Of a stretch of DNA of 64,000 bases, positions 50,257 to 55,522 are shown in pieces. The stretch is from an uncultured Sphingomonadaceae bacterium (GTDB lineage Bacteria; Pseudomonadota; Alphaproteobacteria; Sphingomonadales; Sphingomonadaceae): contig CALMVA010000018.1 of NCBI GenBank assembly GCA_937873035.1, positions 1 to 64,000 on the forward strand, in the 5' to 3' direction. The translations under genes and the position numbers were made by a program. Positions within the stretch are counted from its first letter, which is position 1. Each line of letters opens with the position of its first letter. The notes under the pieces are model-generated. The model was not told where the DNA came from, ran no database searches, and worked only from the letters and a program-made list of their open reading frames with translations.

Positions 50257-51089
50257 GCCGCAATCTCCGCATAACCTTCGCGCTCAAGCTCAAGCGCAAG
50301 CTCTGGCCCGCCCGATTTCACGATCCGCCCGCCAGCGAGCACATGGACGAAATCGGGCTGCACATAGTCCAGCAGGCGCTGATAATGGGTGATGAGCAGC
50401 ACGGCCTTGTCGGGCTTGCGCATGATGCGGTTGATGCCTTCACCCACCACACGCAGCGCATCAATGTCGAGCCCGCTATCGGTTTCATCAAGAATGGCGA
50501 GCTTGGGGTCGAGAATTCCCATCTGCACCATTTCGTTACGCTTTTTCTCGCCGCCCGAAAAACCGACATTCACGGGGCGCTTGAGCATCTCCATGTCCAT
50601 GCCCATCGCATCGGCCTGCGCGCGCGCGATTTTCAGGAATTCGCCGCCAGACAGCGGGGCTTCGCCGCGCAGCTTGCGCTGGGCGTTCAGGCATTCGCGC
50701 AGAAACTGGACATTTGACACGCCGGGGATTTCAACGGGATATTGAAAGCCGAGGAAGAGGCCTGCAGCCGCGCGCTCATGCGGTGCGAGGCTCAACAAAT
50801 CCACCGCTTGCCCTGAGCTTGTCGAAGGGCTGTTCTTGCTGTCCTCTGATGTTGTCGAAAAGGACGGTCCTTCGACAGGCTCAGGACGAACGGAGTTTGG
50901 CGTGAACCATACTTCCCCATCCGTCACTTCATAGCCCGGACGGCCCGACAACGTGTAGCCCAGCGTCGATTTGCCAGCGCCATTCGGGCCCATGATCGCG
51001 TGGATTTCACCCGCATTGATCGTGAGCGACAGGCCCTTCAGGATCGGCTTGTCGGCAACATTTGCGTGAAGATTATTTATTGAGAGCAT
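50253..51089 (-). CDS. sufC: Fe-S cluster assembly ATPase SufC with repeat-derived insertion
   Basis: The 278-residue ABC ATPase has Walker A G-P-N-G-A-G-K-S-T (34-42), Q-loop G-F-Q-Y-P (about 114-118), signature F-S-G-G-E-K-K-R and Walker B A-I-L-D-E-T-D-S-G. SufC is normally about 248 residues; here about residues 63-97 (R-P-E-P-V-E-G...S-P-S-T-S-S-G-Q-A) are extra. The DNA for this part, 50804-50894, is a copy of the palindromic family A repeat found between genes elsewhere in the window. The frame stays open and all ATPase motifs are intact, so the protein is probably functional with a surface insertion. Confidence 0.93.
   Translation of the reverse strand: MLSINNLHANVADKPILKGLSLTINAGEIHAIMGPNGAGKSTLGYTLSGRPGYEVTDGEVWFTPNSVRPEPVEGPSFSTTSEDSKNSPSTSSGQAVDLLSLAPHERAAAGLFLGFQYPVEIPGVSNVQFLRECLNAQRKLRGEAPLSGGEFLKIARAQADAMGMDMEMLKRPVNVGFSGGEKKRNEMVQMGILDPKLAILDETDSGLDIDALRVVGEGINRIMRKPDKAVLLITHYQRLLDYVQPDFVHVLAGGRIVKSGGPELALELEREGYAEIAA
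50804..50894. repeat. Family A palindromic repeat inside sufC
   Basis: The inverted halves GCCCTGAGCTTGTCGAAGG (about 50810-50828) and CCTTCGACAGGCTCAGG (50869-50885) flank a 40-base centre. The element is the same as the intergenic copies at 45.6, 60.4 and 63.0 kb but is translated here as part of SufC. Confidence 0.9.
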
Positions 51090-53356: not shown

Positions 53357-53392
53357 GGGCGGCTAATTGGACCGCATTAGTCCGAATTTCAA
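53357..53392 (-). promoter_or_regulatory. Promoter and operator of the suf operon, leaderless arrangement
   Basis: On the minus strand TTGAAA (53392-53387), 17 bases, then CAATTA (53369-53364) form a sigma70-like promoter. An inverted repeat CTAAT-8-ATTAG (53363-53380) covers the -10 and spacer, a position suited to repression by the Rrf2 protein just downstream. The start point would fall next to the ATG, giving a leaderless or nearly leaderless mRNA. Confidence 0.5.
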
Positions 53393-54216
53393 CCCCGATC
53401 TTCCAGCTCGCGGAAATTGGCGGGATGGAGCGACGCGCGCATGATGAGATTGCCCATCGTCCTGAGTTGCCGGGGCGTCTGCCCGGTCACGCGGCGTACC
53501 TCGCGAATGAGGTGTGACTGATCGGCATAATGTGCAATCGCGTCGGCATTTGGTGTGCCGCCATGTTCGACCAGCCAGGATGCGGTGCGGAGTGCTGCAT
53601 ATTTGCGGGCAAGCGCCTTGGGCGGCGCACCCCAATAGCGGTTGGCGATCCGCGTGATCTGCCGTTCTGAAAGAGCCAGGCTTGCATAAAGCGTCGCAAG
53701 ATCGGGCGCGAGTGAGGAGGCAAGCCAGTCGCGGATCGCTTCAACCACGCGGCCATGACCGGCAGGCAGCGGCATGAGGCGACGGATGAAAAACGCGTCA
53801 GCCAGCGCTTTTAGCTGGGCGATGTCGTCACATTCGCGCATCCGCATATAAACATTCTCAACAGGTGCCCCGATAAGGGCTGCGGCATCGCAGGCATCGT
53901 CGCTCAGGTCATTGGCCGCCGCCGGAAAAATCCCGCCCCAGGCGGCCGGCAACAGGCTGACACCAAAGAAGCGAAGCGGCCCCGACACCGAATAGCTGTG
54001 GCATTGGCTTGTTGGCCCGATAAGCGCGGCTGGCGGGGCGTGAACGCGCTTGCCGGAGGCGAAATCCTGATAGCCGGAGCCTTTGAAGAACATCCGAAAA
54101 TGGCCGGAATCGGCGCGCTGAATATCATCAATGGCAGAGCGTTCAGACGTGGCCAGATAATAGGTGCCGATATGGCGGGTGAGTTCTGGCGCCGGGGCTG
54201 CAAAACTCCACTGCAT
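53389..54216 (-). CDS. AraC family transcriptional regulator, second of tandem pair
   Basis: The 275-residue protein has an N-terminal DUF6597-like sensing domain (about residues 1-140, with I-G-P-T-S-Q-C-H-S-Y) and a C-terminal AraC DNA-binding domain (L-S-E-R-Q-I-T-R-I-A-N-R-Y-W-G-A-P-P-K and D-Q-S-H-L-I-R-E-V). It shares G-A-P-P-K-x-L-A-R-K-Y-x-A-L-R-T-A with the upstream paralogue. The two genes overlap by one base (TGATG). The target and ligand are unknown. Confidence 0.87.
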   Translation of the reverse strand: MQWSFAAPAPELTRHIGTYYLATSERSAIDDIQRADSGHFRMFFKGSGYQDFASGKRVHAPPAALIGPTSQCHSYSVSGPLRFFGVSLLPAAWGGIFPAAANDLSDDACDAAALIGAPVENVYMRMRECDDIAQLKALADAFFIRRLMPLPAGHGRVVEAIRDWLASSLAPDLATLYASLALSERQITRIANRYWGAPPKALARKYAALRTASWLVEHGGTPNADAIAHYADQSHLIREVRRVTGQTPRQLRTMGNLIMRASLHPANFRELEDRG

Positions 54217-55055
54217 CAGATTTCAGATGTCAGCTTTGAGATACGCCCCTTTAACTTGCGCCGCTCGAAGGTCGCCTTGGTGAGCCGCGGCGTGCGCTTG
54301 ATCGCGGCCGGGGTGACGCCTGCAAATGCCTTGATCTCGCGGATGCAGTGCGACTGGTCATAATAGGCCTCGCCGATATAATCCTGCCAGTCGCCTTCGC
54401 CATTGGCGATGCGCACCGCAGTCCGCAGCGCGCGATATTTGCGGGCGAGCAGCTTGGGCGGCGCGCCGTAGATGGCCTTGAGCTGACGCTGTGCCTGTGC
54501 GTTTGAGAGACCAGTTTTTTCGAGCAACACAGAAACATCGGGCGCAAGGCTTGTTTCCAGCCATTCATCAACGGCGTGGATAAGCCACAAGGGCGGCTTT
54601 TCGGCTAAGGCGATGGCGGCCAGCATATAGGCTTCTGCCGCCGCTACCATCTCTTCAAAACTGGCGGCGGCTTCAATCGCGCGATGGGCCGCTTCGATGG
54701 GGCCGCAAATTGGGCCAAAGCCATCGACCATCTGGTCCGCAAGCTGATGGGCCGGTGTGCTTGTCACGGCAAGCCATCCCGCAGGCAGAAGCCCCAGCCC
54801 GAACAGCCGGGCGGGGCCGCGCGCGACAATCCGCGATGCCTTGTTGCGCGGGCCGATCAGCGAGAGGGGGCAGAAGCTGTCGCGTCTGCCGGGTCCAAAG
54901 ACAAGCTCGCCCTGGCCTGCAAGCATGAAGCGCAATTGGGCGACGTCGGCGCGCTCGATCTCTTCGAAGGCCGCCTCATCGCTTTCAAACAAGTAGAAGG
55001 CCGAAATATACTCGGCCAGCATCGGGCTGGGGGCTGCATATTTCAAATCAAACAT
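54216..55055 (-). CDS. AraC family transcriptional regulator, first of tandem pair
   Basis: This 279-residue paralogue has the same layout: N-terminal sensing domain (I-G-P-R-N-K-A-S-R) and C-terminal AraC domain (L-S-N-A-Q-A-Q-R-Q-L-K-A-I-Y-G-A-P-P-K, D-Q-S-H-C-I-R-E-I). The pair arose by duplication and is transcribed towards the suf operon. Readthrough into suf is possible but not required, given the separate promoter. Confidence 0.87.
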   Translation of the reverse strand: MFDLKYAAPSPMLAEYISAFYLFESDEAAFEEIERADVAQLRFMLAGQGELVFGPGRRDSFCPLSLIGPRNKASRIVARGPARLFGLGLLPAGWLAVTSTPAHQLADQMVDGFGPICGPIEAAHRAIEAAASFEEMVAAAEAYMLAAIALAEKPPLWLIHAVDEWLETSLAPDVSVLLEKTGLSNAQAQRQLKAIYGAPPKLLARKYRALRTAVRIANGEGDWQDYIGEAYYDQSHCIREIKAFAGVTPAAIKRTPRLTKATFERRKLKGRISKLTSEI

Positions 55056-55125
55056 GAAGGATGCGACCCTGTATCATTGCCCCTGAGCTTCACTTAACTG
55101 CTAAGCCCATACTCCTTTAACGGCT

Positions 55126-55157
55126 AAAAAAAAGGCCGACGCGTCTAAGCGTCGGCC
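55126..55157 (-). terminator. Strong intrinsic terminator on the minus strand
   Basis: GGCCGACGC (55134-55142) and GCGTCGGCC (55149-55157) form a perfect 9-bp stem with a 6-base loop, followed on the minus strand by eight T. No minus-strand gene lies upstream of it, so it must end a short transcript that starts within 55160-55520. Confidence 0.85.
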
Positions 55158-55240
55158 GTGGAGTTTTGTAAAGGATCCTAAAAGAAGGAGTCCTTCGGGT
55201 CGCAAAGTCTTCCTAGCCCGACGATTTGCCGTCGAATTGG
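55126..55240 (-). ncRNA. Candidate small regulatory RNA
   Basis: On the minus strand the terminator is preceded by about 80 bases with no ORF. They contain a possible hairpin (CGACG-6-CGTCG at about 55218-55234), a short GAAGG/CCTTC fold (55185-55195), the self-complementary AAGGATCCTT near 55170 and several exposed C-rich CTCC stretches of the kind seen in alphaproteobacterial sRNAs that pair with Shine-Dalgarno sequences. The 5' end is not fixed; I set it near 55240. The strand and extent are inferred from the terminator. Confidence 0.5.
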
Positions 55241-55243
55241 AGG

Positions 55244-55271
55244 AAATCGACAAAATAGAACAAAATCGACA
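55244..55271. promoter_or_regulatory. Direct repeat AAATCGACA x2 upstream of candidate sRNA
   Basis: AAATCGACA occurs at 55244-55252 and 55263-55271, a 19-base period, directly upstream of the candidate sRNA on the minus strand. Such spacing (about two helical turns) suits a regulator dimer pair or a response-regulator site. Confidence 0.4.
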
Positions 55272-55522
55272 TTGATAACCGTGATTCGTTGGATTTCCGG
55301 CTAATAATGCAGCCTGCCACTTACCTATGATGGTCGAAAATTACGCAAAATATAATCATTTCGGCATGATTCTAAGGCGCGTGTCGGCCGCCGACTCGGC
55401 GCGCGTGCCAGCCGGGCAGGTGGCACCGGCGCTGATTCAGGCGCGCCGCCTTTTTCTTTCGCCGAGTCGTTCAGATGCTGGGGTATTTCCCCCTTATGCG
55501 AAATCACTCTAAGGCGAGTCGC
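55272..55522. other. Intergenic region before pyrD
   Basis: This stretch is AT-rich to about 55375 and GC-rich after. It should hold the pyrD promoter and possibly that of the sRNA, though I see no clear consensus. A hairpin with T-run (55427-55460) is listed separately. A 61-codon ORF in the + frame (55327-55512) lacks a ribosome binding site and recognisable features. Confidence 0.5.
55427..55460 (+). terminator. Attenuator-like hairpin in the pyrD leader
   Basis: CGGCGC (55427-55432) and GCGCCG (55443-55448) form a GC-rich 6-bp stem with a 10-base loop, followed by CC and TTTTTCTTTC on the + strand, about 60 bases before the pyrD start. It could be a leader attenuator or the end of a short upstream transcript. 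Confidence 0.4.

Follow-up and report, generated by a model that had tools for sequence, protein, structure and literature searches.

The minus strand of the 64,000-nucleotide stretch of Sphingomonadaceae DNA analysed here (the window) very probably carries the gene of a small RNA (sRNA) of about 78 nt, at 55203-55126. As judged by sequence comparison, this sRNA is a new family of a known kind, the trans-encoded bacterial sRNA. The element combines a promoter region of its own (known from conservation only), a conserved RNA structure and an intrinsic terminator, and it is independent of any fixed downstream gene: an AraC, DUF885 or Rrf2 gene may follow, or none; copies occur at other loci; and in one case the sRNA faces a convergent gene. 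Our overall explanation, to which we assign a probability of roughly 0.6, is that of a trans-acting, probably Hfq-dependent sRNA that would lower translation through a seed at its 5′ end, with the mRNA of an AraC-type regulator among the targets.

To our knowledge, few sphingomonad sRNAs have been characterised. About half of the species sampled in the family have the present one, which can be recognised by its promoter block, keeps a constant tip and is linked to a regulator. It thus offers a ready entry to post-transcriptional control in sphingomonads, which are used to degrade pollutants, and a clean example of an sRNA tied to a transcription factor, with possible regulation in both directions.

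Results

A terminator without a gene of its own

The original prediction described a perfect 9-bp stem with an eight-T tail ending at 55126 on the minus strand, and a stem search with shuffled controls bears this out. The minus strand reads GGCCGACGC-TTAGAC-GCGTCGGCC at 55157-55134, giving nine perfect pairs, followed by TTTTTTTT at 55133-55126. On both strands of the window this is the one perfect 9-bp stem followed by at least seven T, none was found in 60 dinucleotide shuffles, and the site is the top terminator-like site within the surrounding 10 kb. The terminator was also rightly said to have no owner, since its 5′ side holds only pyrD, on the plus strand, and thus no gene ends there. 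An antisense ORF of 1157 aa across pyrD and its neighbour was rejected as a candidate owner and is read as a GC-rich artefact. Left unweighed in the prediction was a co-directional AraC-type gene that begins 70 nt past the T-run (Table 1). Between terminator and AraC gene, a six-codon ORF (ATGGGCTTAGCAGTTAAGTGA) lies directly behind AAAGGAGT at 55110-55090 (minus strand), and a second AraC-type gene (DUF6597 + HTH_18) directly follows the first at 53389-54216, also on the minus strand.

Table 1. Features of the sRNA locus in the window
Feature	Position	Strand	Basis or remark
Small RNA gene, ~78 nt (putative)	55203 to 55126	-	conservation, covariance model, covariation, fold
Invariant 5′ heptamer GCGACCC, proposed seed	55197..55203	-	invariant in 54-sequence alignment
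Hairpin 1 (GAAGGA-C-UCCU / AGGA-UCCUUU)	55170..55196	-	folds in single sequences; covariation
Single-stranded linker ACAAAACUCCAC	55158..55169	-	alignment and fold; linker CTCC lost in relatives
Intrinsic terminator	55126..55157	-	9-bp stem, 6-nt loop, eight T
-10-like TAGGAA	55210..55215	-	TA 20 nt past CAAT, as in relatives; position inferred
Conserved promoter block TGTCGATTTCCTCCAAT, about -50 to -34	55236..55252	-	conservation in relatives
Direct repeat TGTCGATTT	55271-55263 and 55252-55244 (within 55244..55271)	-	sequence
GGGTCGC, complement of the sRNA tip	55063..55069	-	14 nt before the AraC ATG
AraC-type regulator gene (DUF6597 + HTH_18), linked gene	54216..55055	-	Pfam, linkage

A conserved and covarying RNA

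The sRNA opens at its 5′ end with an invariant tip, GCGACCCGAAGG; a covarying hairpin and a linker come next, and the GC-rich terminator closes it. The invariance of the tip extends past GCGACCC to the whole of GCGACCCGAAGG in the 54-sequence alignment, and the tip is unpaired in most folds; the linker and the hairpin loop are variable among relatives. The 5′ end was placed by conservation, and the true start may lie 1-3 nt further upstream.

Changes on both sides of a pair, as expected of compensation, are seen in 23 of the 27 pairs across 84 distinct matches (11 of 15 in the hairpin 1 helix and all 12 in the terminator helix). The covariation score of 0.452 exceeds those of shuffles (0.156) and of slid partners (0.06-0.12), in an alignment that was fitted to the covariance model and hence leans towards its structure. 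This model was made from 25 sequences, with the window's copy excluded and the structure set by hand; it recovers the sRNA of the window at 55127-55203 with 31.3 bits and gives 31.6 bits to one other site of that genome. Because the E-values of the model are rough, the membership of the window's sRNA rests on the tip, the promoter block and the gene order together with the score.

An unannotated minus-strand small RNA was the core of the original prediction, and the comparison with relatives that it proposed agrees with it: the sequence and structure of the sRNA are kept across Sphingomonadaceae with strong covariation, as are its promoter region and gene order. The CTCC repeats that it pointed out are present, in the hairpin arm, the linker and the upstream promoter block, but they are altered in relatives. 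Their suggested role of masking ribosome-binding sites finds no support; what stays constant is GCGACCC at the 5′ tip, and the data point to that heptamer as the seed.

These observations also bear on the alternative of a lone terminator-like hairpin without any functional RNA. The conserved upstream promoter block, the invariant tip and the covarying second hairpin make it exceedingly improbable.

The promoter region

The promoter block has the family form TGTCGnnTnCATmCAAT and stands mostly 32-33 nt from GCGACCCGAAGG. The direct repeat TGTCGATTT is found only in the window's genus, where it is kept at L010, L013, L015 and L017, and could possibly be a tandem activator site.

The motif TGTCGnnTnCATnCAAT of this promoter is found before other genes as well (L178, L180, L187 and L193), namely those of two secreted proteins, an AraC-type gene and a LysM protein, whose leaders carry GGTCGC. 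In genome G027, the promoter block also stands before the AraC gene itself. Its presence there and before a few genes with GGTCGC leaders suggests a shared activator; that this activator is the AraC-type protein is a guess, and we hold it as a doubtful one. Motif matches in two contigs of genome G000 (C78 and C83) have no -10 element, look like chance and were dismissed.

Stand-alone RNA or leader of the AraC gene

The AraC gene is the most frequent neighbour of the sRNA. Homology searches in 84 cases identified AraC as the closest recognised gene in the same direction in 52, DUF885 in 16, Rrf2 in 12 and none in four. AraC is present at 39 of 53 pyrD loci with the sRNA versus none of 27 without it (Fisher p = 2.5e-11, uncorrected for relatedness). 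We also considered pyrD as the functional partner and rejected it: at nine loci DUF885 lies on that side of the sRNA, and AraC is still downstream.

The linkage raises the question of whether the RNA is a cis-acting leader, in which termination or read-through would set AraC expression (attenuation) and, on read-through, the tip would base-pair with the GGGUCGC located at the start of AraC. The strength of the linkage speaks for such a leader, as does the position of AraC as the next co-directional gene, often less than 100 nt away, and the predicted fold of the window's read-through transcript does join GCGACCC to GGGUCGC in cis. Terminator-attenuated leader RNAs resemble the element in being structured RNAs with a terminator before a co-directional gene, as found here in most genomes. 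They differ from it in three respects. First, the gene that follows the sRNA on its strand is not the same in every case, and the 28 cases with DUF885 or Rrf2 downstream have the same tip and architecture. Second, some copies have no such gene: the neighbour of the sRNA in G131 is a convergent transporter-like gene, nothing co-directional follows, and copies elsewhere again keep tip and architecture. Third, no mutually exclusive antiterminator fold is evident. Moreover, L034 and G027 have DUF885 between the sRNA and AraC, yet AraC keeps GGGTCGC. We therefore consider a pure leader unlikely. Since downstream genes differ and copies occur elsewhere, the sRNA is best read, on these comparative grounds, as a stand-alone, trans-acting RNA.

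The 5′ tip as a proposed seed and its candidate targets

In 42 AraC leaders no 7-mer is more frequent than GGGTCGC, the exact complement of GCGACCC, with 12 occurrences (one of which falls inside the sRNA's own terminator) versus a permutation mean of 0.9. It is rare in the 100-110 nt before the other neighbours, being found in 1 of 80 pyrD, 0 of 21 DUF885 and 1 of 37 Rrf2 cases. Another AraC-like gene of G027, a distant one, carries it too. The exact heptamer is absent before AraC in the nearest relatives of the window.

Enrichment at start sites was scanned in 2.4 Mb of one genome, G027, with home-made gene starts. At -60 to 0 of the predicted starts, 35 GGGTCGC were seen versus 13-15 expected, a 2.1- to 2.5-fold enrichment that ranks first to third of 105 permutations, and no other heptamer along the sRNA ranks as high as the 5′-terminal one when composition is matched. 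Judged by a third-order Markov model, the enrichment in G027 is moderate (z 3.2, rank 161 of 14173), and in a stricter scan, requiring the heptamer and then GGAG or AGGA plus ATG, GGGTCGC ranks 6 of 105 and is not singled out.

NAD kinase was entertained as a target and rejected, as GGGTCGC in the nadK leaders comes after a conserved -10-like element, CATAG, and belongs to a promoter. A conserved block GCGTTGCCAAATGGCAC, followed about 20 nt on by CATAG, precedes NAD kinase genes family-wide (L314-L336), and its sequence suggests a separate type of promoter.

Alternatively, the sRNA may be real and its tip kept for promoter clearance, protein binding or RNA stability, with pairing via the linker or the hairpin loop. 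The tip does sit at the transcription start, where it is also under DNA constraints, and part of the GGGTCGC enrichment is promoter-linked. However, linker and loop vary, no linker heptamer is prominent in the seed scan against composition-matched 7-mers, and, of the neighbouring genes, AraC is the one whose leaders specifically carry the complement of the tip; we regard this alternative as improbable. We thus favour GCGACCC as the seed, which the sequence data make likely, and grade its pairing no higher because the nadK sites are promoter-linked, the stricter scan was negative and the nearest relatives lack the heptamer. For the neighbouring AraC mRNA as a target, the sequence evidence puts the chances at about even.

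Relation to known sRNA systems

The family is absent from Rfam 15, where only sub-threshold SuhB/MmgR matches (RF00519) and weaker ones were obtained. The window's sRNA could be taken for a divergent member or paralogue of SuhB/MmgR: it is matched over the full length of RF00519 with 31.4 bits, L014 and L022 score 34.5 and 26.2 bits, and size and layout are similar, including an ACUU-like linker before the terminator. Membership was nevertheless rejected. The score of 31.4 bits is below the gathering score of 41 bits, and the true SuhB of the genome is at a different locus (G000:C9:41718-41797, 52.4 bits). In addition, six other members scanned (e.g. L034, L037 and L078) have no RF00519 match, and neither the RF00519 consensus nor L001 contains the invariant tip GCGACCCGAAGG. 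A distant kinship with SuhB/MmgR is thus very unlikely. What the two share is a general plan, that of alphaproteobacterial trans-encoded sRNAs of 60-80 nt in which a hairpin is joined by a linker to a GC-rich terminator; they differ in locus and 5′ end, besides the score under the family cut-off. The SuhB of Sphingopyxis granuli TFA is a 61-nt, Hfq-dependent repressor of thnR (PMC6563040).

We found no description of the present sRNA in the open-access literature; subscription papers may hold an earlier account. RybB-type enterobacterial sRNAs are about 80 nt long, with a conserved unpaired seed at the 5′ terminus and a terminator with a long U-tail. The sRNA resembles them in layout, with similar size, unpaired 5′ tip, long U-tail and proposed action near start codons. 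It differs in the GC-rich composition of its predicted seed and in having an AraC-type regulator as a linked gene, and we assign it to neither the RybB type nor SuhB/MmgR.

Distribution in sphingomonads

PyrD relatives place the window's genus, a member of the Sphingomonadales, close to Chakrabartia. Of 13 genomes of this genus, 6 show the element by DNA similarity alone. A fuzzy search for TTGCGACCCGAAGGACTCC finds the unit at most Sphingomonadales pyrD loci, on the opposite strand to pyrD. With the covariance model, members are found at 53 of 80 sphingomonad pyrD loci. The pattern CAAT-N26..36-GCGACCCGAAGG occurs in 143 of 299 family genomes and 57 of 96 genera, compared with about 6 genomes for the reversed pattern, and has four matches among 285 genomes of the class outside the family. 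Out-of-family matches (L157-L160, L163) were rejected as sRNAs because they have neither promoter block nor hairpin-terminator, and no convincing member was seen among the inspected matches in those 285 genomes.

In one genome of the window's genus (G003), two tandem copies, each with a TGTCG promoter block and terminator, are found at L119:1501-1753. In two genera (L108 and L148), a copy lies near a nearly identical SSB-like gene; both have the same tip and a similar promoter block, and these second copies are possibly carried by a mobile element.

Discussion

We propose that the unpaired 5′ heptamer GCGACCC would pair with GGGUCGC near the ribosome-binding sites of several mRNAs, and that the mRNA of the neighbouring AraC/DUF6597 regulator may be one of them. 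By analogy with 5′-seed sRNAs such as RybB, pairing would lower the translation of the target mRNAs. Hfq is encoded in the window's genome. With less weight, we suggest that the AraC-type protein might activate the sRNA from the TGTCG-N4-CATmCAAT block; activation by AraC of an sRNA that represses AraC would close a negative feedback loop.

A bolder and rather speculative extension is a sphingomonad-wide hub, in which the GCGACCC-seed sRNA would be switched on by the adjacent DUF6597 AraC-type protein and would repress AraC both in trans and, through the read-through leader, in cis, along with a set of genes that carry GGGUCGC close to their start codons; the second copies in the possible mobile element would use the same seed.

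Two further observations concern other sequences. In a single 195-aa frame of the window's genome (L344/L345, G000:C48:15638-16066), two successive Hfq domains are found, i.e. a tandem Hfq. Elsewhere in the window, a long, nearly perfect hairpin at 50795-50900 (-58.3 kcal/mol, z -6.9) draws chance Rfam matches on both strands (mir-515 and AaHKsRNA41) and resembles a REP-type inverted repeat between genes.
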